In this document: in pieces, positions 24,160 through 45,546 of the stretch | Numbering within the stretch: position 1 is the stretch's first letter | How the letters are laid out: every line of letters starts with the position of its first letter | Assembly (NCBI GenBank): GCA_017484085.1 | Contig: JAFUTW010000016.1 | Coordinates: forward strand, 1-48,057 | Origin: Clostridia bacterium | GTDB taxonomy: Bacteria > Bacillota > Clostridia > Christensenellales > Aristaeellaceae | Length of the DNA: 48,057 nucleotides | Reading direction: 5' to 3' | Made by a program: the position numbers and the translations under genes | Notes under the pieces: generated by a model | What the model was told of the DNA's origin: nothing | The model's input: the letters and a program-made list of their open reading frames with translations, nothing else | The model's database searches: none

Positions 24160-25428
24160 ATGAAGAGAATCATCGCGGCGGCCGGTGCCATGCTGCTTGC
24201 GGCTGCCCTTGCGGCGGCGGAAACGGCAGTGCCCGGCTTTGACGACTTTTCCCCCGCCTTTCGCGGCATCGGCAATCGGATCGCTTCCGGAGAGACCGTT
24301 CTGACGGAGACGAGGCTTACAACTGCGGCGGCTTTTTACATCCGTGATCTGAGCGTGATGCGGGACATCTTCTCCGGGCTTTGCATCCGCACCCGAACGG
24401 GGACGGACGCCGGCGCGCAGATTACGGAATTGGCCCTGCTGGACGGGGAGACCGTTCTGGAGGAAGCGGCGCTTTGCAGCGACGGAGAAGAGCAGCTGCT
24501 CTTTCTGGACGGACAGGTGCTGCATCTGGGACAGGAAACGCTTACCGGCCTTGTGCCGCACGGCATCCCGGACGCGCTGGGCGTGAGGAGAACGGACCGG
24601 CTGCCCGCTCTTCCGGCGGCCTGGCCGGAGCGGTTCGGGCGCCTGCAGCCGGAAGGGCTGTCCGCGCTGCTGGAAGGCGGAAGCATCGGGAGCTTTACCT
24701 GTACCCCGGTTTCATCGGAGGACGGACTGCTGACAGGCTTCGGCTTTTCCGGACAGCTGAATGCCGGCCTGCTGCCGGGCGGCGAAGCGTGGAGCGCGGA
24801 AGGCTCCTTCTCGCGCGGGACGGGAAAGGCGCCGAAGGATACGGCCGAGCTGACGCTGAAAAAGGACGACGACAATGCGCTGACGCTGACCTTCAGCGCA
24901 CAGTACAAGGCGTCGGAGCAAAAAAAGGGCGAGCAGGGCACGCTGACCCGGACGACGCGCGCGCGGCTTTCCGGAAAGCTCGGCGGCTATGCGCTCGACG
25001 CCGTGCTCGAGCTGAAAGAAAAGAACGCCTGGAAGCTGAAGGAAGGCGCGCTGGCGGAGAAGATCACCGTAAGCGCCAAGCTGGACTGGCAGGACAAGAC
25101 GCCGGCGCACAGCACGCTGCGGCTTGGCAACGGTTCTGTCACGATCGATGAGGAACTGGGCGTCTCTTCTTCAGAGGGAGAGGCAAACGCCTGGACGGAT
25201 TCGGTTGCGCTGAAGCTTTATATGAACGGCGAAAAGACGATCGACGGCAAGGCGGAAAGCGCATCCCGGTTTGATGCCGGGCTGCCGGCTTTCCCGGAGG
25301 GGGAAGCTGCGGAGGCGGACGGCACGGCGTTTGCGCAGGCGGTGAGGAATGCCGCAAAGCGTGTCGCCCGCGCGGTATACAGCCGTTTGGGACCCAAATC
25401 GCAAGGGACGATCACAAAAGGGCTTTAA
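24160..25428 (+). CDS. secreted protein of unknown function
   Basis: The product has 422 residues and a clear signal peptide (MKRIIAAAGAMLLAAALAAA). The mature part is rich in beta-strand patterns with alternating charged residues and Thr (LSGKLGGYALDAVLELKEK, EKITVSAKLDWQDKT), which recalls large beta-sheet sandwich or lipid-binding folds, and ends in a short helical tail (AFAQAVRNAAKRVARAVYSR). I recognise no family. It begins 7 bases after rimM, so it is likely co-transcribed with it. Confidence 0.75.
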   Translation: MKRIIAAAGAMLLAAALAAAETAVPGFDDFSPAFRGIGNRIASGETVLTETRLTTAAAFYIRDLSVMRDIFSGLCIRTRTGTDAGAQITELALLDGETVLEEAALCSDGEEQLLFLDGQVLHLGQETLTGLVPHGIPDALGVRRTDRLPALPAAWPERFGRLQPEGLSALLEGGSIGSFTCTPVSSEDGLLTGFGFSGQLNAGLLPGGEAWSAEGSFSRGTGKAPKDTAELTLKKDDDNALTLTFSAQYKASEQKKGEQGTLTRTTRARLSGKLGGYALDAVLELKEKNAWKLKEGALAEKITVSAKLDWQDKTPAHSTLRLGNGSVTIDEELGVSSSEGEANAWTDSVALKLYMNGEKTIDGKAESASRFDAGLPAFPEGEAAEADGTAFAQAVRNAAKRVARAVYSRLGPKSQGTITKGL

Positions 25429-25444
25429 GCCCGGGAGGTAACTG

Positions 25445-27130
25445 ATGAAGCATCTGATGAAGGGATTGGCATGGGCGCTTTGCTTTATGCTGGCGCTCCC
25501 CGCCTTTTCTCTGGCACAGGAAGGAAACTACGAAGCCGGACAGATGACGGCGACCGTCGCGTCCGACAGCTACAGATACGGCCAGCAGATCAACGTGGAT
25601 CTGACCTACGAAACGACGGAAGCCGCAGCAGAGGTCTCCAAGCGCGTGGCGGCGGCAGCTGCGCTGCTGGAGCAGTGCGAGCTCTCCATGTCCTTCTATG
25701 ACGACTACGGGACAGCGCAGATCCACGGCGTGTTCTCGCTGGACGGCGTTGAACTGCTTGACGTGACCGTGCTGCTGCCGCAGGACGGTTCCCTGCAGAT
25801 GCAGACGAACCTGACCGGCAACAGCACGCTGACGCTTCCGGCCGGGGCGCTGACGCGGGGGGGAAGCCTTCAGGATATGTTCTACGGCTCCATCGTGCGC
25901 CGCAAGACGGACGTCAGCCTGACGGAGATGACCGCAACGGAGCGCCTGAAGGCGACCAGCAGCGATGTGCTGATCCTGGTGTTCAACCACCTGCTGGGCT
26001 GGACGAGCTACCAGCAGATGGAGCGCGAGGAGACGCTGTACGTCTTTGACGATACGCACTTTGACGCGACCGAGACGCGCGACGCTGTGGAGCAGCGGAT
26101 GATCGGCACCGTGTACGCGAGCGAGTTCACCGAGCTGCTGTGGAACATCACCGCCACCATCGATGCGGAGATGGGCGACTTCCAGCAGGCGCTGGCCGAT
26201 GTGCTGGCCGAGCGGGGCGTGACCCGCCTGCAGGTGCGCCATCTGGTGGATCAGCTGTTTACCAAGGAGACCATCGATCCCGCGACGGATTACGTGCAGC
26301 CGACCCACGCCATCCCGGACGACGGCGCGCTGTGCACCTACAACGACATTTCCTACTTCTTCAAAAAGCTGGTCAAGTGCACGGACTCCATGTGGGAGAA
26401 CTGCACGGAGGAGACGCTGTCCCTCATCGTCAGCTATGATGAAAACGGGCGCATGGTGGGCTTTGACGCGGTGCTGCCCAAGTTTACGCAGGATCTGCCC
26501 TATGAAGGCAATTATTCCTGGTCCCTCGTGCACGACGAAAACGGGCAGGAAAAGCAGACGATCCACGGCGAGCTGGAGCTCTTCAACGACAACCGGCTGA
26601 TGGGCGATGCGGTCCTCGTGCTGGGCAAGGATATCGAAGGCGTGTGCGAGAGCAGCGTGCAAGGCCATCTGGATCTGGTGAACCGGGCAGACGGACAGCA
26701 GACGAGCACCGGACTGGGTGTCGCGGGCAGCCTGACCTCCACCCTGACGCAGGACGGGACGACGGAAGGGGAAGCCGTGGAAGGCGCCCTGGTCCTGAGC
26801 CTGCGGCAGAACGGCGAGGAGAACGATGCGCTCTCCGTGACGCTGGACTCTCAGACCAAGACGGAGGACGGCGTCACCTTCACCCTCGACGCGGATATCG
26901 GCATCGAGGCGGCCGGTCTCTTGCCGGTGCGCACCAACCTGAATATCACGACGAGCGATCCGGAGGAGCTGAATTTCGCAGGCGGGCAGGCGATCGACCT
27001 GACGAACCTGAGCGAGGAGAATATCGAAACGCTGATCAGCACGGTGAAAAAGCAGGGCGCAGCCCTTCTGCCGCAGATGATGCTGCATCCGTCCGTTCTT
27101 TCGAACCTCACCCGGCTGGTGTCAGACTGA
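25445..27130 (+). CDS. secreted protein of unknown function, related in layout to the previous one
   Basis: The product has 561 residues, with a signal peptide (MKGLAWALCFMLALPAFSLA). The start has GGAGGT five bases upstream. Like its neighbour it has a mature body with repeated beta motifs (NVDLTYETTEAAAEV, ALVLSLRQNGEENDALSVTL, FTLDADIGIEAAGLLPVRT) and a helical C-terminal tail (LISTVKKQGAALLPQMMLHP). The two share layout rather than clear identity, so they may be distant paralogues. It may be a surface or periplasm-facing protein, but the function is unknown. Confidence 0.75.
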   Translation: MKHLMKGLAWALCFMLALPAFSLAQEGNYEAGQMTATVASDSYRYGQQINVDLTYETTEAAAEVSKRVAAAAALLEQCELSMSFYDDYGTAQIHGVFSLDGVELLDVTVLLPQDGSLQMQTNLTGNSTLTLPAGALTRGGSLQDMFYGSIVRRKTDVSLTEMTATERLKATSSDVLILVFNHLLGWTSYQQMEREETLYVFDDTHFDATETRDAVEQRMIGTVYASEFTELLWNITATIDAEMGDFQQALADVLAERGVTRLQVRHLVDQLFTKETIDPATDYVQPTHAIPDDGALCTYNDISYFFKKLVKCTDSMWENCTEETLSLIVSYDENGRMVGFDAVLPKFTQDLPYEGNYSWSLVHDENGQEKQTIHGELELFNDNRLMGDAVLVLGKDIEGVCESSVQGHLDLVNRADGQQTSTGLGVAGSLTSTLTQDGTTEGEAVEGALVLSLRQNGEENDALSVTLDSQTKTEDGVTFTLDADIGIEAAGLLPVRTNLNITTSDPEELNFAGGQAIDLTNLSEENIETLISTVKKQGAALLPQMMLHPSVLSNLTRLVSD

Positions 27131-39135: not shown

Positions 39136-39211
39136 GCTGCCGTAACTCAAGGGTCAGAGTTCCGGCCTTATAAGCCGGCGGCTGCCTGTTCGAATCAGGC
39201 CGGCAGTACCA
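39136..39211 (+). tRNA. tRNA-Ile (anticodon UAU)
   Basis: The cloverleaf folds fully over 76 bases. Acceptor GCTGCCG/CGGCAGT, D arm ACTC/GAGT with a GGG loop, anticodon stem CCGGC/GCCGG with loop CTTATAA, variable loop CGGCT, T arm GCCTG TTCGAAT CAGGC, A73 and encoded CCA. The anticodon reads TAT (UAU), so it decodes AUA. Most bacteria read AUA with a CAU-anticodon tRNA modified by TilS; a genuine UAU anticodon is rare. Confidence 0.93.
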
Positions 39212-39219
39212 TTTCTTTA

Positions 39220-39295
39220 CTGGGTGTAGCGCAGTTGGCAGCGCACGGCATTCGGGATGCCGGGGCCGTCCGTTCGAGCCGGACCACCCAGACCA
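39220..39295 (+). tRNA. tRNA-Pro (anticodon CGG)
   Basis: The cloverleaf folds over 76 bases. Acceptor CTGGGTG/CACCCAG with C1-G72 (the bacterial tRNA-Pro hallmark), D arm GCGC/GCGC, anticodon stem CGGCA/TGCCG with loop TTCGGGA (anticodon CGG, G37), T arm GTCCG TTCGAGC CGGAC, A73 and encoded CCA. Eight bases separate it from tRNA-Ile, so the two are one transcript. Confidence 0.96.
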
Positions 39296-39580: not shown

Positions 39581-39667
39581 AACCCTGTCCCGGCGGCGCC
39601 TGTCTTGATCACCTCTGCAGCGCGGGGTAAAATACTCCTTGTCAGAGACAGAGAGGGGGAAGACCCA

Positions 39668-40891
39668 GTGGCCTACAGCGAATTGATCAAGAATTTTGAG
39701 AAGGTCCGCTCTTATATGCGGGATTTTTACGTCTATGGTTTCAAGGGCCGCAATGAGTTTGATGCCAAAAGCGCCAGGATCTATGACGATGAATACCGCA
39801 GGGTGAAGGCCTGGCTGGAAGGCTATATGAATTCCTATACCGATGAAACCGGGAAAAAGGTCTTCATCTCCATCGACAGCCGTGCGGTCTTTCACAACCC
39901 GCTGTATACTGCTTTCAAAACCAAGAGCTTTACGGACTGGGATATCACGCTGCATTTCTTTCTGCTGGATATCCTTTCGGACGGGCCGGCCACGGTCGGC
40001 GACTGTGTTCAGAGGATCACGGAGGTTTATCTGAAGGATTTTCCCGCCGAGTTTCCGGATGAGCGCACCGTCCGGAACAAGCTGAGCGAATACGAGAAGA
40101 TGGGGATCCTGGTTTCACGGAAGCGGGGGCGGAACCTTGTCTACTCGTTTTCAGAGGAATTCCGGGAGTCTCCCGCCTGGCGGGACGCCATCGCTTTTTA
40201 CACAGAAGCGATGCCGCTGGGGGTCATCGGGAGCTATTTTCCGCAGAGCGGCGCATCGCCTTTCGGATTCAAACACCGGTACCTGCTGGATGCGCTGGAC
40301 AGCGAGATCGTGTATGACCTGTGTGAATGCATGAATGAGAGCCGCGCAGCGGAGCTGACCCTCTTTTCCCGCAGGAAAAAGCAGGAGAATACGCACACCG
40401 TTTATCCTGTCCGGTTCTATTTTTCCGTGCAAAGCGGAAGGCAGTACCTCCTGGGTTATCATTACCGCTTCCGGAGGCCGATGTTTTTCCGCCTGGACTG
40501 CCTGAAGAAGGTCAAAGCGCTGGAGACGGAAAAGGATCCTGAAAGGTACGAGGCTTACTGGCAGGCGTTTGACCGGTATCTCTGGGGCGTCTCGCCGGGG
40601 GACCATACGCTGGACCATCTGGAGATGCTGATCCACGCCGGCCCTGATGAGGGATTCATTGCCGAAAGGCTGATGCGGGAAAAACGGCACGGCACAGTGG
40701 AGCAGGCGGACGGGGAAACCTGGAAGTTTACTGCGGATGTGTACGATGCAACTGAGATGCTGCCGTGGATCCGCACGTTTATCGGCCGGATCGAGCAGCT
40801 GACCTGCACGAGCGATTACGTTGTCCGCTGCCTCCAGGACGACCTGACGGCGATGAACCGTATGTACGGGGGTGATACCGGTGCTGTTTGA
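39668..40891 (+). CDS. WYL-domain transcriptional regulator 1
   Basis: The product has 407 residues from a GTG with GAGGGGGAA upstream. Residues about 95-165 are winged-helix-like (DERTVRNKLSEYEKMGILVS). The C-terminal part carries a WYL fold (VYPVRFYFSVQSGRQYLLGY, YRFRRPMFFRLDCLKKVKAL) and a C-terminal extension (WIRTFIGRIEQLTCTSDYVV). WYL domains bind nucleic acid or nucleotides and regulate DNA-damage, defence and RNA-repair genes. The stop overlaps the start of the second WYL gene, so the two are likely partners. Confidence 0.87.
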   Translation: MAYSELIKNFEKVRSYMRDFYVYGFKGRNEFDAKSARIYDDEYRRVKAWLEGYMNSYTDETGKKVFISIDSRAVFHNPLYTAFKTKSFTDWDITLHFFLLDILSDGPATVGDCVQRITEVYLKDFPAEFPDERTVRNKLSEYEKMGILVSRKRGRNLVYSFSEEFRESPAWRDAIAFYTEAMPLGVIGSYFPQSGASPFGFKHRYLLDALDSEIVYDLCECMNESRAAELTLFSRRKKQENTHTVYPVRFYFSVQSGRQYLLGYHYRFRRPMFFRLDCLKKVKALETEKDPERYEAYWQAFDRYLWGVSPGDHTLDHLEMLIHAGPDEGFIAERLMREKRHGTVEQADGETWKFTADVYDATEMLPWIRTFIGRIEQLTCTSDYVVRCLQDDLTAMNRMYGGDTGAV

Positions 40892-41795
40892 CGAGTATTA
40901 CGGCGAGTATTATGCCTGTGTTTCGGAGATCCTGCAGGAAGCGTTGAAAGGGACCCTCACTAAAGAGAAGCTGATCGATATCACAAGACGCAGGGGATTT
41001 GCCGAAACCGTTCTGACCATACCGGGGCATCTGAAGGACGGCTCTTGGCCGCTGCTGACAGCGGATCTCAAAACGGCGCTTCGGCATCCCCCGCAGCATC
41101 CGGTCACCCTGCTGCAGAAGCGGTGGCTGAAGACCTTGCTGGATGATCCGAAGATCCGTCTGTTCAATGTGCCGGAAACCGGGCTGGAGGACATCCGGCC
41201 GCTGTTTGACCCGCGGAAGATCATCTGGTACGACCGGTACGGCGACGGAGATCCTTATGAAGATCCGGGGTACATCGAGCGTTTCCGGCTGCTGCTGGAG
41301 GCTGTGAAACAGCACCGCAGGGTGCAGGTGACGTTTACCAGCCACAGGGGCAGGCAGAACACCTGGACCGTGTTACCGTACCGGCTGGAATACTCCGGCA
41401 CGGACGACAAATTCCGGCTGCTGTGCGAAAGCGACAGGCAGAGATACCGGACGCTGAACCTGCAGCGCATCTCCGCCTGCCGCCTCTTGGAGGCCTTTGA
41501 TCCGGAGGAGCATCCATCGCCGCTGCTGCAAAACGACAGTGTGCAGCTGGAGATCGTCGATGAGCGCAACGCGCTGGAACGGGCTATGCTGCAGTTTTCC
41601 TACCTGGCCAAGAAGACGGAGCGGACCGGAGAAAACACTTACCGGATGACGCTGCAATACCGCAGGGAAGACGAAACGGAGCTGCTGATCCGCATCCTCT
41701 CGTTCGGCCCTGTGATACGGGTGGTGGAGCCGGACCGCCTGGCCATGCTGATCCGGGAGCGGCTGCAGCGGCAGTCCCTTTGCCATTTTCCCTGA
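40881..41795 (+). CDS. WYL-domain transcriptional regulator 2
   Basis: The product has 304 residues. The GTG at 40881 has GGGGGTG seven bases upstream; another GTG at 40872 is an alternative. There is no obvious N-terminal helix-turn-helix, unlike its partner. A WYL fold lies at about residues 135-200 (VQVTFTSHRGRQNTWTVLPY, YSGTDDKFRLLCESDRQRY, LNLQRISACRLLE), then an extension with ILSFGPVIRVVEPDRL. Two adjacent WYL genes with split roles recall heterodimeric WYL pairs such as PafB/PafC. A weak terminator follows. Confidence 0.85.
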   Translation: MLFDEYYGEYYACVSEILQEALKGTLTKEKLIDITRRRGFAETVLTIPGHLKDGSWPLLTADLKTALRHPPQHPVTLLQKRWLKTLLDDPKIRLFNVPETGLEDIRPLFDPRKIIWYDRYGDGDPYEDPGYIERFRLLLEAVKQHRRVQVTFTSHRGRQNTWTVLPYRLEYSGTDDKFRLLCESDRQRYRTLNLQRISACRLLEAFDPEEHPSPLLQNDSVQLEIVDERNALERAMLQFSYLAKKTERTGENTYRMTLQYRREDETELLIRILSFGPVIRVVEPDRLAMLIRERLQRQSLCHFP

Positions 41796-41802
41796 AGAAG
41801 AG

Positions 41803-41821
41803 AAGTTCGCAACTTTTTTTT
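41803..41821 (+). terminator. weak terminator after the WYL pair
   Basis: A short AAGTT/AACTT stem with CGC loop is followed by eight T. It would separate the regulators from the RNA/Ro/RtcB unit. Confidence 0.55.
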
Positions 41822-41825
41822 CATG

Positions 41826-41851
41826 ATCTGCGCGGCAGATTCTGTTATCCT
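41826..41851 (+). promoter_or_regulatory. operator palindrome and -10 box of the RNA array
   Basis: ATCTGC GCG GCAGAT is a perfect 6-3-6 inverted repeat at 41826-41840. Six bases later TATCCT (41846-41851) could be a -10 box whose start site would be 41857-41858, exactly the 5' base of the first predicted RNA helix. No good -35 box is present, as expected for an activated promoter. The palindrome lies where a WYL or XRE regulator could act. Confidence 0.5.
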
Positions 41852-41856
41852 TTGCT

Positions 41857-42010
41857 CAAGATACCGACAGCAATCCAATACATAGGAATGCCAGTAGCCA
41901 CGCAGCGACGGCGGGAACGATACCGGTAAAGACCGACGAAGCGCAAAGGGCAAACGGCCACGGCCGGGTTTTCGGAGGTGAAAGCCCTCCGCTGGAGGCA
42001 GGGTATCTTG
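41857..42010 (+). ncRNA. Y-RNA-like RNA 1
   Basis: CAAGATACC (41857-41865) pairs perfectly with GGTATCTTG (42002-42010), closing a 154-base RNA. GACAGCAATCC follows the 5' strand directly. Inside are hairpins such as GGGTTTTC/GAAAGCCC and CCTCC/GGAGG. There is no ribosome binding site or long reading frame. It is the first of three modules with the same closing-helix layout. Bacterial Y RNAs have a helix joining 5' and 3' ends that binds Ro60; the next gene is Ro60-like. Confidence 0.75.
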
Positions 42011-42018
42011 CCGGTGAA

Positions 42019-42082
42019 AAGACGCAGACAGCAATCCTCTATCGCACATTTATTTCGTCTGATAAACGAAGCCCTGCGTCTT
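42019..42082 (+). ncRNA. Y-RNA-like RNA 2
   Basis: AAGACGCAG (42019-42027) pairs with CTGCGTCTT (42074-42082), closing 64 bases. ACAGCAATCC follows the 5' strand as in RNA 1, and a TTCGT/ACGAA hairpin fills the loop. Eight bases separate it from RNA 1 and seven from RNA 3. The smallest module, it could be the minimal Ro-binding unit. Confidence 0.75.
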
Positions 42083-42089
42083 GTCTTCA

Positions 42090-42200
42090 AAGATGCCGAC
42101 AGCAAATCAAAACGTTCGTTAGTCCAGGGGAGGACAACGGGACCATGCGTTCCGCCTTGCGGGGGTTCGACTCCCTCACGAATTTGAAAAACGGCATCTT
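42090..42200 (+). ncRNA. Y-RNA-like RNA 3 with tRNA-like domain
   Basis: AAGATGCC (42090-42097) pairs with GGCATCTT (42193-42200), closing 111 bases. GACAGCAAATC follows the 5' strand. The interior from 42113 to 42185 folds as a full tRNA-like cloverleaf. Bacterial YrlA-type Y RNAs contain just such a tRNA mimic. It ends 17 bases before the Ro60-like gene's ribosome binding site. Confidence 0.8.
42113..42185 (+). other. tRNA-like cloverleaf inside RNA 3
   Basis: Acceptor CGTTCGT/ACGAATT (6 of 7 pairs, one wobble), D arm GTCC/GGAC with AGGGGA loop, 5-bp stem CGGGA/TTCCG with 7-base loop CCATGCG, 6-base variable region, T arm GGGGG TTCGACT CCCTC. It lacks CCA, has C33 in place of U33, and is enclosed in another helix, so it is not a working tRNA but a mimic. 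Confidence 0.8.
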
Positions 42201-42233
42201 GTTCTCAAAATACAGCAAAGGAGGACGATGAAC

Positions 42234-43691
42234 ATGCTGAATGAATTGAAAAACGAAGCCGGCCGCACACTGACGGAAAACGGAGCGGCAGCCCTGCGGA
42301 GCACGGGATCCGATTGCCTGGATCTGTTTGCGACGATTGGCGCGCTGAGAAACGCAGGAGAGCGTGAGATCATCGCCCGCTTTGTCCGCGCATATGCCGA
42401 AGACCGGGATCTGGCGATGAAGATGCTGTTCTACAGCCGGGATATCCGGGGAGGACTGGGCGAGCGCCGCGTCTTCCGCATCATCCTGAGGGAACTGGCG
42501 GATACCCGGCCGGAGTCCGTCCGCAGGAACCTGCACCTCATCAGTGAGTACGGCCGCTGGGACGACCTGACCGTGCTCTTTGACACGCAGTGCGAAAAGG
42601 ATGCCCTGAAGCTGATCCGGGAGCAGCTCGGTCGGGATCTGGCAGCGCTCCGGGCCGGCGGGGAGATTTCCCTGATGGCAAAGTGGCTGCCCTCCGTCAA
42701 CACGTCAAACCCTGAAACCGTGCGAAACGGAAAGCGCATCGCAAAAGCGCTGAAACTGTCGGATGCGGAGTACCGCAGGACGCTGGTCCGGCTCCGCGAA
42801 AGGATCCGGATCATCGAAAACCGGCTGCGCACGAAGGATTATACGTTTGATTATGCGGCGCAGCCCTCCAGGGCTATGCTCAAATACCGCAAAGCGTTTC
42901 AAAGAAACGACCGGGAGCGCTATGAAAGCTACCTGGACAGCGTCTCCATGGGGACGGAGAGCCTGAAAACGGCGGCGCTGAATCCTTACGACATCGTGGA
43001 GAAGGCGATCCGCTGGAAGGGTGATCCTCTGGAGCGGAAGGCGCTGGATGTGACCTGGAACGCGCTTCCCGACTACGCGGCCCGGGAAAACGCGCTGTGC
43101 GTGATCGACGGTTCGGGCTCCATGTATGGCGGGGGTACGCCGTATCCCATCACCGTGGCGCTGTCCCTGGGCCTGTATTTTGCGGAGCGCAATACCGGTG
43201 AATTCCGTAACCATTTCATCACCTTTTCCCGGACCCCGCAGCTGGTGGAAATCAAAGGACAGGACCTGACGGAAAAGGTCCGCTACTGCGCTTCGTTCAA
43301 TGAAGTCGCAAACACGAACGTTCAGAAGGTGTTTGAACTGATTCTCTCAACAGCGGTCAAAAACAGGCTGCCGCAGAGCGAAATGCCGGGGACGCTGTAT
43401 TTCATCTCCGATATGGAGTTTGACTTCTGTACGGATGACGCCTCCCTGACGAATTTCGAGTATGCCGGGCGTCTGTTCAGGGAGAACGGGTACGCGCTGC
43501 CCAGGATCGTCTTCTGGAACGTCCAAAGCCGTAACCGGCAGCAGCCCGTCCGCATGAATGACAAAGGCGTCATCCTCGTGAGCGGATGCAGCCCGCGCAT
43601 CTTCTCGATGGTAGCCGGCGGGGCACCGGATCCCTTGACCTATATGCGGCAGACGCTCCTCGGGGAGCGGTATGCGCCGGTCTGCGCGTAA
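42234..43691 (+). CDS. Ro60-like protein (TROVE/DUF2828-type, with vWA domain)
   Basis: The product has 485 residues. AAAGGAGG lies nine bases before the ATG at 42234; an ATG at 42228 is only three bases away from it. Residues 1-270 form a helical-repeat ring-type domain (TENGAAALRSTGSDCLDLFA, RDIRGGLGERRVFRIILREL, SLMAKWLPSVNTSN). Residues 280-460 are a von Willebrand A domain with MIDAS motif VIDGSGSMYGG and FNEVANTNVQKVFELIL. Ro60 proteins bind Y RNAs and misfolded RNA through the ring and degrade or store it with nucleases. Here RNAs lie directly upstream and an RNA ligase downstream. Confidence 0.9.
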   Translation: MLNELKNEAGRTLTENGAAALRSTGSDCLDLFATIGALRNAGEREIIARFVRAYAEDRDLAMKMLFYSRDIRGGLGERRVFRIILRELADTRPESVRRNLHLISEYGRWDDLTVLFDTQCEKDALKLIREQLGRDLAALRAGGEISLMAKWLPSVNTSNPETVRNGKRIAKALKLSDAEYRRTLVRLRERIRIIENRLRTKDYTFDYAAQPSRAMLKYRKAFQRNDRERYESYLDSVSMGTESLKTAALNPYDIVEKAIRWKGDPLERKALDVTWNALPDYAARENALCVIDGSGSMYGGGTPYPITVALSLGLYFAERNTGEFRNHFITFSRTPQLVEIKGQDLTEKVRYCASFNEVANTNVQKVFELILSTAVKNRLPQSEMPGTLYFISDMEFDFCTDDASLTNFEYAGRLFRENGYALPRIVFWNVQSRNRQQPVRMNDKGVILVSGCSPRIFSMVAGGAPDPLTYMRQTLLGERYAPVCA

Positions 43692-43709
43692 GCGGCCTCC
43701 TGAACCGTT

Positions 43710-43816
43710 TGCCGCAGTTCATATTACCTGATATCCCTGCGGACGCGGCAGGGCGAAAGCAGGCGCGGTCGGCGGCGGGGATGGCGCAGACAGCTAATCT
43801 GCAGGCTCACCCCGCC
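43710..43816 (+). other. structured gap between the Ro60-like and rtcB genes
   Basis: The 150-base gap has two hairpins: TGCCGC (43710) with GCGGCA (43745), and GGCGGGG (43774) with CCCCGCC (43810), the latter enclosing GCAGA/TCTGC. The loop of the second reads GACAGCTAA, close to the GACAGCAA motif of RNAs 1-3. It may be a fourth, degenerate module or a processing/attenuation site. Confidence 0.45.
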
Positions 43817-43841
43817 GGCCGGCTGTCTGAAGGAAGGCATT

Positions 43842-45047
43842 ATGATGGAAATAAAAGGAAAGTTTGCGACGGCGATCAGCTATGCAAAGGAAATGGAGGA
43901 GCTGGCTGAGAGCCAGATCCGCACCCTGTGTGATCAGCCGTTTGCCGAGGGCTGCCGGGTGCGGATCATGCCCGATGTGCACGCCGGAAAGGGCTGCACC
44001 ATCGGCACGACCATGACCATCCGCGGGAAGGCGGTCCCCAATGTCGTGGGCGTGGATATCGGCTGCGGCATGTATGCCACAAGGCTGGAGGACGGGCAGA
44101 TGGACTTCGGGCGCATCGATGAGATCTGCCACCGGATTCCCAGCGGGATGAACGTATGGGAGTCCCCCCGGGAGGCCTTTGACCTGGAGCAGCTCCGCTG
44201 CTATGAGAAGCTGCACAGCAGGACGCGGCTCAAAAACTCGCTGGGGACGCTGGGCGGCGGCAACCACTTTATCGAGATCGACCGTTCCGAAAGCGGGGCA
44301 TACTGGCTGGTCATCCATTCCGGCAGCCGGAATCTCGGCAAGCAGGTCTGCGAGTTTTACCAGCAGCTGGCCGTGGATATCGCGGAGGGGAAGGAAGAAT
44401 ACAAAGAATCCTCTCCCGAGCTGATCGCCCGGCTGAAGGCGGAGGGCAGGCAGAAGGAGATCCAGAAGGAACTGAAAGCCCTGCGCCTGAGGCTGAATCA
44501 CAAGACCGCGCCGGACAGCCTGTGCCATCTGGAAGGGCAGCCGCTGGAGGATTACCTGCACGACGTCCGGATCTGCCAGGCCTTCGCCAGGCGCAACCGG
44601 GAAATCATGACGGAAATCATCCTGGAGCAAAGCGGCATGAGAGCCGCGGAGAGCTTCCACACCATTCATAACTACATCGACACGGACGAGATGATCCTGA
44701 GGAAGGGCGCCATCGCGGCGCATGCCGGCGAGCGGGTGCTGATCCCCATCAACATGCGGGACGGCAGCATCATCGCCATCGGGCGCGGCAACGAGGAGTG
44801 GAACTTCTCCGCCCCGCACGGCGCCGGGCGGGTCATGTCCAGAAAGACGGCCCGGGACACCCTTTCCCTGGAGGCGTACCGGGAGGCCATGAAGGGCATC
44901 TACACCACGACGGCCAACCTGGAGACGATCGACGAAGCGCCCATGGCCTACAAGCGGATGGAGGACATCCTGGAGGCCATCCGCGAGGCGGTCGACATCG
45001 TGGAGATCATCAAACCGGTTTACAATTTCAAGGCGGCGGAACAGTAG
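43842..45047 (+). CDS. rtcB: RNA ligase RtcB
   Basis: The product has 401 residues, AAGGAAGG before the ATG. RtcB features: VGVDIGCGM (metal-binding Asp and Cys), LGTLGGGNHFIEID (GMP-binding GGGNH), WLVIHSGSRNLG, and NFSAPHGAGRVMSR with the His that is guanylylated. RtcB joins 2',3'-cyclic phosphate or 3'-phosphate to 5'-hydroxyl RNA ends using GTP and Mn, healing broken tRNAs and other RNAs. No archease or RtcA gene is adjacent. It ends in a stem overlapping its own stop codon. Confidence 0.96.
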   Translation: MMEIKGKFATAISYAKEMEELAESQIRTLCDQPFAEGCRVRIMPDVHAGKGCTIGTTMTIRGKAVPNVVGVDIGCGMYATRLEDGQMDFGRIDEICHRIPSGMNVWESPREAFDLEQLRCYEKLHSRTRLKNSLGTLGGGNHFIEIDRSESGAYWLVIHSGSRNLGKQVCEFYQQLAVDIAEGKEEYKESSPELIARLKAEGRQKEIQKELKALRLRLNHKTAPDSLCHLEGQPLEDYLHDVRICQAFARRNREIMTEIILEQSGMRAAESFHTIHNYIDTDEMILRKGAIAAHAGERVLIPINMRDGSIIAIGRGNEEWNFSAPHGAGRVMSRKTARDTLSLEAYREAMKGIYTTTANLETIDEAPMAYKRMEDILEAIREAVDIVEIIKPVYNFKAAEQ

Positions 45048-45124: not shown

Positions 45125-45147
45125 AGATTGACGAAGGGGTGGAGGGA

Positions 45148-45546
45148 ATGAAAGACAAAAGGATCACCAGCATTCCCGGCCTGCTGGGGCGGGTGGATCA
45201 TTACGACGAGAACGGGGAGCTCATCGGCTACAGCATGCCGGGGCTTCTCGGGGGGATGGACCACTTTACCGCCGACGGCACTCCGGCAGGCTGCAGCGTC
45301 GAGGGCGTGCTGGGCGGGCTGGAGCATTACGACAGAGCGGGGAAGCACGCGGGGTACAGCGTGGATGGCCTCCTCGGCGGGTATGCCCACTACGGCTCCG
45401 ACGGCAGCTACGAGGGGTTCAGCGCGCCGAACATCCTTTCCGGCAGCACCTTCTACGGCAGCGCGGGCGGCGCTTCCGGGATCTTTGAGGATACGGGGGA
45501 GGCCGGCGACGGGTGCGACGGGCCGGATCCCTTTGACGACATTTAA
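45148..45546 (+). CDS. protein of four to five 21-residue tandem repeats
   Basis: The product has 132 residues and starts at an ATG with AAGGGG eight bases upstream. The repeats read GLLGRVDHYDENGELIGYSM, GLLGGMDHFTADGTPAGCSV, GVLGGLEHYDRAGKHAGYSV, GLLGGYAHYGSDGSYEGFSA, then a decayed fifth. The pattern is GLLGGxxHYxxxGxxxGYSxx. A short acidic end follows. The motif suggests a beta-hairpin repeat with a G-turn like MORN or YD repeats, though it matches neither exactly. There is no signal peptide. Function unknown; it follows the RNA-repair locus but has its own promoter. Confidence 0.75.
   Translation: MKDKRITSIPGLLGRVDHYDENGELIGYSMPGLLGGMDHFTADGTPAGCSVEGVLGGLEHYDRAGKHAGYSVDGLLGGYAHYGSDGSYEGFSAPNILSGSTFYGSAGGASGIFEDTGEAGDGCDGPDPFDDI

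Follow-up and report, generated by a model that had tools for sequence, protein, structure and literature searches.

Three similar units follow one another at positions 41858–42200 of a Clostridia bacterium contig (GenBank JAFUTW010000016.1, assembly GCA_017484085.1), between two WYL-domain regulator genes and a gene coding for a Ro60-like protein. What are these units, and what could they be for? The window, i.e. the whole stretch of DNA that was analysed (48,057 nt), belongs to a genome assembly of 2,426,127 bases which is ~81% complete. In an initial annotation of the window, the units were described as three tandem Y-RNA-like RNAs with closing helices. Comparison with related loci gives good support to a modular family of predicted RNAs in bacteria, phages and viral contigs. 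By sequence, each unit (hereafter, module) is built of a helix of 7–9 bp joining its two ends, the motif CAGCAA at a constant distance and a variable interior. Many of the interiors are tRNA-derived and consist of an anticodon stem-loop, a T arm, a whole D-anticodon-T domain or a permuted tRNA core.

A module family with covarying end helices

In the window array, the three closing helices of 8–9 pairs given by the initial annotation were all perfect in sequence (Table 1). The sizes of 64 and 111 nt were kept for modules 2 and 3, and module 1, given as 154 nt, was redefined as 152 nt (41858–42009). CAGCAA starts 10 nt from the first stem base in all three modules. It had been annotated as (G)ACAGCAA after each 5′ strand; CAGCAA is indeed shared, but the G of GACAGCAA is variable in the set of 177 modules described below. 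The 16-nt 5′ motif AAGRYRCNNRCAGCAA was found three times in the whole genome, each time in the window array, and neither the opposite strand nor the reversed pattern gave a match. A chance origin of the array is excluded, because the motif occurs genome-wide only at the array and in none of the controls. Each module was also folded along with 200 dinucleotide shuffles, and was more stable than the shuffle mean (z of −2.50, −3.64 and −2.28 for modules 1, 2 and 3, respectively).

Loci containing relatives of the Ro60-like protein, which carries a DUF2828 domain, were taken from contigs of named genomes (35 loci) and from the family, where 47 of 300 genomes had a match (30 loci). A gene fragment (L037), copies of the window and of L003 (L038 and L039) and the window itself (L001 and L002) were left out of the 63-locus set. 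Upstream of the gene, the coding strand of this set yielded 143 modules, whereas 20 shuffles gave 5.05 on average (maximum 9). The controls gave 5 modules on the opposite strand, 1 within genes, 6 on the opposite strand of the genes and 6 downstream. The initial annotation had made its claim depend on homologous helices upstream of related genes, and at least one upstream module was found in 56/63 loci. A strict filter left 134 modules, at 1 to 7 per locus; it removed 3 overlapping ones, every module of more than 260 nt and every one with a spacing other than 10. Among the seven loci without upstream modules, L052 and L054 hold a module with a different stem, and L045, L048 and L049 have their array elsewhere in the genome; L011 and L028 gave no module with the strict detector or with the relaxed one described below.

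A further 391 genomes of the class were searched, and 18 had a DUF2828 match. Upstream modules were present in 15 of the 17 loci that were new. The remaining two, L082 (with a single match, inside the gene) and L084, are gene fragments. The most distant locus of this draw (L083, 30% identity) has retained two short modules. Two pairs of loci came from duplicate genomes (L069 = L005 and L070 = L008) and were removed only where the module sequences were identical.

Covariation between modules had been put forward as a sign of real helices, and this was borne out. When the 63 loci were seeded on the 5′ motif alone, 118/137 sites had their own reverse complement within 260 nt, vs. a mean of 7.1% (maximum 14.2%) with arms swapped among sites. 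In the set of 177 modules (from the added loci, L082 and modules longer than 180 nt were excluded), the eighth pair, which is not needed by the detector, was formed in 134 modules vs. 68.6 (maximum 87) with shuffled partners. The consensus of this set is AARRYRC-NN-NCAGCAA … A-rich … GYRYYTT, usually followed by G.

The 5′ motif alone was found in 96 of the 300 genomes of the family, i.e. in 31/47 with a DUF2828 match and 65/253 without, and isolated matches are often due to chance given the latter figure. In the 15 regions collected around motif matches or arrays, six (L204, L205, L212–L215) lacked both modules and genes of the set. In G231, a genome without a DUF2828 match, four modules nevertheless form an array flanked by a WYL pair and rtcB. 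DUF2828 paralogues with 39–44% identity (L138–L153, 16 loci) had no module with the strict detector, and 20 paralogue loci gave 7 matches with the relaxed detector vs. 4.6 in shuffles. Three of these seven (L154, L155 and L156; DUF2828 50–53% identical) have in common a unit of 175–180 nt with the stem ACGATGC/GCATCGT and CAGCAA at the usual distance. RtcB was present within the fetched stretch in 25/57 loci. For WYL the figure is 17/57, one of these matches covering only 36 residues; the stretches are short and both figures are rough.

A DUF2828 homologue is encoded in 680 of 50,697 phage records. The first detector demanded AAG/AAA stems and was escaped by the modules of Felix-like, Listeria, Aeromonas, Klebsiella and Campylobacter phages and of mycobacteriophages. 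With the relaxed detector (any 7-bp stem), 48 matches were obtained in 19 phage/plasmid loci vs. 2.6 in shuffles, with 1 on the opposite strand (L100, a near copy of L087, was excluded from this count). The few matches lying in coding sequence are probably due to chance. At least one match was found in 14/19 loci and none in L089, L096, L098, L103 and L104. A tRNA gene, RtcB or RNA ligase was present within the fetched stretch of 11/17 phage regions: tRNA clusters in PJN02, wV8, EF1, LMTA-148, phi1_175008, CPX and phiSHEF16, single tRNAs in Finnry and SEP9, rtcB in LMTA-148, and RNA ligase in LAh_8 and GAP32. The tRNA cluster of Enterococcus phage phiSHEF16 also contains a tmRNA gene (L101, 328–678; Rfam 130.4 bits, E 9.4e-51). 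IMG/VR was scanned with peptides of the window protein and gave no relative. Two exact DNA patterns of the module matched 84 and 108 stretches among 2.9 million viral contigs; in the 183 distinct viral loci, a DUF2828 gene was found in 95, a tRNA in 147 and either of them in 169. The tandem trio, which the initial annotation took for an undescribed arrangement, is one case of this large family.

tRNA-derived interiors and tRNA genes in arrays

Nothing tRNA-derived had been noticed in the interiors by the initial annotation, which has to be corrected here. ARAGORN reported a tRNA-His (anticodon atg) in module 3, and module 2 contains a stem-loop whose loop, CTGATAA, is that of tRNA-Ile(GAU) of the window genome; the stem differs (CCCGC/GCGGG in the tRNA). 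Rfam tRNA gave no report for the module 3 domain. An acceptor stem with a CCA/charging end is absent from module 3, the body of which ends with …GAATTTG and continues into the closing helix. Read by eye, the interior of module 1 may be a tRNA-like domain that has degenerated, its D-loop being enlarged and GGAGG-TGAAAGC-CCTCC (41974–41990) resembling a T arm; this reading is tentative, and the minimum-energy fold of the module pairs the stretch otherwise.

ARAGORN alone names 6/134 inserts, and hairpin statistics were used instead. The 177 modules contained 136 hairpins with a 5-bp stem and a 7-nt loop vs. 31.7 in shuffles, and 44 T-loops vs. 0.125. In 19/177 modules, a hairpin loop had exactly the sequence of an anticodon loop from the window genome, vs. 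0.08 (maximum 3) in 200 shuffles. In a set of 153 modules, the excess was by far the largest for a loop length of 7 (121 vs. 30.2), lengths 4, 5, 6, 8 and 9 giving 37–57 vs. 24–29. The long modules of L006, L016, L019, L035, L057, L087 and L101 were read by eye as circularly permuted tRNAs, in the order T arm, acceptor stem capped by a short loop, D arm. Across 558 modules, 83 distinct anticodon-type stem-loops were counted, including 14 for Lys and 13 for Asn. In the 381 distinct viral modules, 64 hairpins carried the anticodon loop of tRNA genes of the same contigs (at least two genes) vs. 1.48 (maximum 6) in shuffles. Lys-UUU loops made up 18/64 of these, on 11 different stems, vs. 3.7% of the tRNA genes of the contigs (binomial 1e-11, uncorrected for relatedness), and Asn-GUU loops 10/64, on 10 different stems, vs. 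4.6%.

No modules accompany the DUF2828 gene in three related genomes (G104, G082 and G055), where a separate array lies behind a WYL1-WYL2 pair (L209–L211). These arrays consist of the GTTCGCAACTTTTTTACCGGGAAA box followed by a permuted-tRNA unit (which falls short of the detector in L211), the genes for tRNA-Lys(UUU), tRNA-Asn(GUU) and tRNA-Lys(CUU), one module and, as read by eye, a terminator-like hairpin. The idea that the modules are an mRNA leader only is weakened, because arrays occur away from the DUF2828 gene. A box close to GTTCGCAACTTTTTTACCGGGAAA precedes the DUF2828 genes of the same three genomes and also the window array, where it reads GTTCGCAACTTTTTT, nearly identical to the others. 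Three spellings of its 8-nt core were found upstream of 17/68 arrays; others have the variant TTCGCAGCTTTTTTTCCGTGAT. A complete tRNA gene is located within or after the array in 12/68 array loci. Lys and Asn are the commonest among the 44 complete tRNA genes in or near arrays, with 19 genes (Lys-CUU 7, Asn-GUU 6, Lys-UUU 6). A tRNA-Lys(CUU) with C33 for the usual U (loop CCCTTAA) was found in 8/13 rows (L208 repeats L053), in or near L042, L052, L054, L058, L064, L209, L210 and L211; it is possibly a nuclease-resistant variant. In the window genome (G000; loci L105–L134 and L158–L170), position 33 of a tRNA-Lys(UUU) is G (loop CGTTTAA).

The Ro-like protein and the genes around the array

The location of the array between WYL regulators and a Ro-like gene followed by rtcB, as initially annotated, was matched by the Pfam-level domain scan (Table 1). 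The name Ro60-like holds for the protein in part: it is a Ro-like DUF2828/DUF7788 protein with rtcB behind it, but Pfam TROVE (PF05731) gave no match. Matches were obtained with DUF7788 (5.9e-42), DUF2828 (6.6e-31) and PHROG 850 ‘RNA-binding protein’. DUF2828 and DUF7788 were matched in 28/28 related proteins and VWA_2 in 19/28 at E up to 1 (best 1.5e-5); TROVE was absent from the 28 relatives in the 25 of 26 families listed. A PDB sequence search with the DUF2828 protein returned a lone match at chance level, a kinase (E 0.91). TROVE was found in 4/291 genomes of the class and is absent from the window genome, an assembly ~81% complete.

The GTTCGCAACTTTTTT box stands 52 nt before module 1 and has no second copy in the genome, even when one mismatch is allowed. 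The extended −10-like element TGTTATCCT that follows it would, if functional, place the start of an RNA at about the 5′ end of module 1. Between the DUF2828 gene and rtcB, the intergenic stretch 43692–43841 contains a conserved element, CCTGCGGACGCGGCAGGGCGAAA … CAGACAGCTAATCTGC … CACCCCGCC, also present in L040 and partly in L059; a CAGCTAA in this gap is similar to the module core, and the AAG-type stem is absent there. A tRNA-Ile(UAU) and tRNA-Pro(CGG) pair (39136–39295) lies directly upstream of HTH and WYL genes. After rtcB, a small protein of repeated units (YS..GLLGG..HY) is encoded at 45139–45546; no Pfam match was obtained for it at E 0.001.

Table 1. Location of the modules, their tRNA-like parts and the neighbouring features in the window
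Feature	Position	Strand	Remarks
WYL-domain regulator 1	39605..40891	+	Domain match
WYL-domain regulator 2	40872..41795	+	WYL match; WCX slightly below cut-off
Box GTTCGCAACTTTTTT	41805..41819	+	Upstream of module 1
Extended −10-like TGTTATCCT (putative)	41843..41851	+	By sequence
Module 1	41858..42009	+	8-bp perfect closing helix AAGATACC/GGTATCTT; CAGCAA
Module 2	42019..42082	+	64 nt; 9-bp perfect closing helix AAGACGCA(G)/(C)TGCGTCTT; CAGCAA; anticodon stem-loop mimic
Anticodon stem-loop in module 2	42054..42070	+	TTCGT-CTGATAA-ACGAA
Module 3	42090..42200	+	111 nt; 9-bp perfect closing helix AAGATGCC/GGCATCTT; CAGCAA; whole tRNA-like domain
tRNA-like domain in module 3	42112..42186	+	ARAGORN tRNA-His, anticodon atg
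DUF2828 (PF11443) + DUF7788 (PF25043) Ro60-like protein	42228..43691	+	Pfam; PHROG 850 ‘RNA-binding protein’
rtcB RNA ligase	43842..45047	+	Domain match

Possible function and relation to known systems

The reading we prefer, at about an even chance of being right, is that the window encodes three small structured RNAs which would form Ro-like ribonucleoproteins (RNPs) showing tRNA baits to anticodon nucleases, within a tRNA-damage regulon that includes RtcB. The helix and CAGCAA would dock on the neighbouring DUF2828 protein, as Y RNAs do on Ro60, and the insert would be displayed. Displayed anticodon loops and tRNA bodies could then bind or absorb anticodon nucleases, and RtcB would rejoin the tRNAs that had been cut. 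The WYL regulators and, in some genomes, spare tRNA-Lys/tRNA-Asn genes would be part of the same regulon. Phages would use the same system, often beside tRNA clusters, for counter-defence. This bait mechanism is proposed from sequence comparison; it appears the best explanation because it covers at once the constant frame, the authentic loops on many stems, the Lys/Asn excess, the tRNA genes in arrays, RtcB and the presence in phages. Colicin E5 cuts tRNA-Asn among the GUN tRNAs. tRNA-Lys is cut by PrrC (PMC10264068) and by PARIS AriB (PMC11455837), according to the accessible text of these reports. A broader proposal, held more tentatively and at somewhat less than even chance, is a modular RNP immune/counter-immune system with a fixed docking frame, interchangeable tRNA-piece baits, cassettes recording the nucleases met, and a co-regulated RNA ligase and spare tRNAs.

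Several observations weigh against baiting. By the hairpin test, neither a T-loop nor an anticodon-like loop was found in 101/176 bacterial/phage modules and 228/381 viral modules. Position 36 is A or U in 73/83 distinct stem-loops vs. 533/930 tRNA genes, a bias that is also compatible with t6A/i6A modification enzymes. Of the 44 complete tRNA genes beside arrays, 19 are Lys or Asn, nine of them coming from three related genomes. RtcB is missing from 32/57 fetched stretches and was found in merely 1/183 viral stretches, and 6/17 phage regions (L086, nt-1, Alsa_3, CELFI, SNUABM_44 and D480) had no tRNA or ligase neighbour. The counts come from related sequences and are hence not independent events. 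The resemblance of the protein to Ro60 is marginal: hhalign of 28 DUF2828 proteins vs. 4 TROVE proteins gave a collinear N-terminal match with E 0.008 and a probability of 5%. Finally, Salmonella YrlA was not cut by the nuclease tested, as stated in the accessible text of PMC7790460.

The modules could instead be tethers that connect the Ro-like protein with an effector nuclease (PNPase or a different one) for RNA decay or quality control without any decoy. The tRNA-like part would then be an effector-binding or gating module, as in the Deinococcus Y RNA and YrlA. The tether role is published for the Y RNA of D. radiodurans (in the accessible text of PMC7790460 and PMC8394870), and the YrlA tRNA-like core is recognizable in permuted modules: among eight sources scanned with Rfam YrlA (RF02553, cut-off 69), L016, L019, L035, L057 and L101 gave sub-threshold matches, from 47.4 bits (E 1.5e-7; L101, 3580–3702) down to 27.2 bits (E 0.11). 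The alignments inspected are carried by the tRNA-like core, and the outer stem of the module is outside them. Many different anticodon loops would be superfluous for a single tether, and we read the Rfam YrlA consensus as containing T, acceptor and D arms without an anticodon arm. A tether also leaves unexplained the authentic loops, the Lys/Asn excess and the tRNA genes in arrays, and we consider it rather unlikely. A sponge or scaffold for modification enzymes is a serious rival to baiting in view of the A/U at position 36, even if we hold it to be distinctly unlikely. The loops would draw enzymes acting at position 37 or 34 (t6A, i6A, Q) and so alter tRNA modification under stress or infection. 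Position 37 is A in 77/83 distinct stem-loops, and tRNA-modifying enzymes are reported to act on YrlA (accessible text of PMC8394870). However, an anticodon loop is absent from modules that are permuted or keep only a T arm, and the array tRNA genes and RtcB indicate cleavage instead.

A role in cis was also considered, in which the modules are tRNA-shaped 5′ untranslated region sensors of the DUF2828-rtcB mRNA and cleavage or ligand binding sets expression. Most of the 63 loci carry their modules upstream of the gene, which would suit it, as would the −10-like box directly before module 1. It is nevertheless very unlikely, given that modules are found downstream of the gene in L207, L208 and phages L088, L090, L093, L095, L099 and L102, before rtcB instead of DUF2828 in L201 and L203, and elsewhere in the genome with a terminator-like hairpin in L209–L211. 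Damaged tRNA genes or functionless mobile repeats would account for interiors that are partly tRNA-derived and highly variable. They are scarcely credible in the face of an end helix with compensatory changes, the constant CAGCAA distance, the strand and position bias and the authentic anticodon loops carried by many stems; the covariation already contradicts them. The purpose of bacterial Y RNAs and of their tRNA mimicry becomes directly testable, each anticodon-loop cassette naming the tRNA whose cutter would be expected to bind. The large DUF2828 family gains a probable RNA partner.

Y RNAs with a tRNA-like domain are already known in bacteria and mycobacteriophages, the bacterial ones as tRNA-like tethers. 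Those of mycobacteriophages were found by Chen 2014, as cited in the accessible text of PMC12282133. In the literature searched, DUF2828 was mentioned in plant papers only, and DUF2828-linked RNAs, the CAGCAA frame, tandem cassettes, anticodon-loop arrays and a DUF2828/WYL tie were not encountered; some phage modules may have been described earlier. The nearest case is Listeria phage CKA15, for which the accessible text of PMC12282133 reports that Rsr is the best HHpred match of CKA15_055, that this protein is present in purified particles, and that strongly transcribed non-coding regions up to 2 kb upstream of its gene may be Y RNAs. From the gene position and the related cka16 record, CKA15_055 is presumably a DUF2828 protein; the DUF2828 gene of cka16 is preceded by three modules (25,290–25,552). 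The likeness lies in a Ro-like gene preceded by non-coding sequence, highly transcribed in CKA15 and holding modules in cka16, whereas the motif, the array and the anticodon mimicry do not appear in the accessible text of the CKA15 report. The transcription in CKA15 is no proof of module expression, because the strongest region (26,236–26,727) is off the cka16 modules if coordinates transfer. In Listeria phage LMTA-148, ~1 kb without annotated genes (L092, 2010–3000) has a tRNA-like stretch inside. It is perhaps another large non-coding RNA, near the strongly transcribed part of CKA15 if coordinates transfer.

The initial designation as Y-RNA-like is right for the YrlA core of permuted relatives, but the window modules themselves were not matched by Rfam YrlA or another Y RNA, either at the gathering score or at E up to 10, and the permuted domain (T arm, closed acceptor, D arm) was not seen in the three of them. 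The helix joining the 5′ and 3′ ends that is typical of Y RNAs is present, as supported by covariation. As in RNA-repair operons, rtcB is adjacent to the DUF2828 gene; no rtcA or RtcR (the sigma-54 activator) was found among the nine window proteins scanned, the remainder of the genome not having been searched for them. The modules resemble the rsr-yrlBA-rtcBA system in that their ends are paired, their body is tRNA-like and both a Ro-like gene and rtcB lie nearby, and permuted modules have the same T-arm/closed-acceptor/D-arm core as YrlA. They differ by their outer stem, by CAGCAA, by their tandem arrays and by varied inserts that include authentic anticodon loops and unpermuted tRNA bodies. 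At the protein level, DUF2828 replaces TROVE and, in the window, WYL genes stand where RtcR would be. Hughes 2020 (PMC7790460, accessible text) suggested that the tRNA-like part of YrlA may competitively inhibit an anticodon nuclease.

The Y RNAs of Deinococcus and vertebrates likewise have a helix that joins the RNA ends and a Ro60 partner, and the array here lies beside a Ro-like gene; unlike them, the modules are unmatched by the Y RNAs of Rfam and the protein is unrecognised by Pfam TROVE. Phage tRNA clusters (PMC10264068) and the T5 tRNA-Lys acting against PARIS (PMC11455837) are described in the accessible text of these reports as giving resistance to anticodon nucleases. In some loci, tRNA genes, with Lys among the commonest, are similarly found near modules or DUF2828. 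The modules are unlike phage tRNAs in that the closing helix replaces the acceptor or anticodon stem and the anticodon arm alone is often retained. Compared with these systems, the array presents the Y-RNA idea as tandem cassettes, in which a constant frame holds exchangeable tRNA pieces, in bacteria and phages, often near an RNA ligase or tRNA genes.
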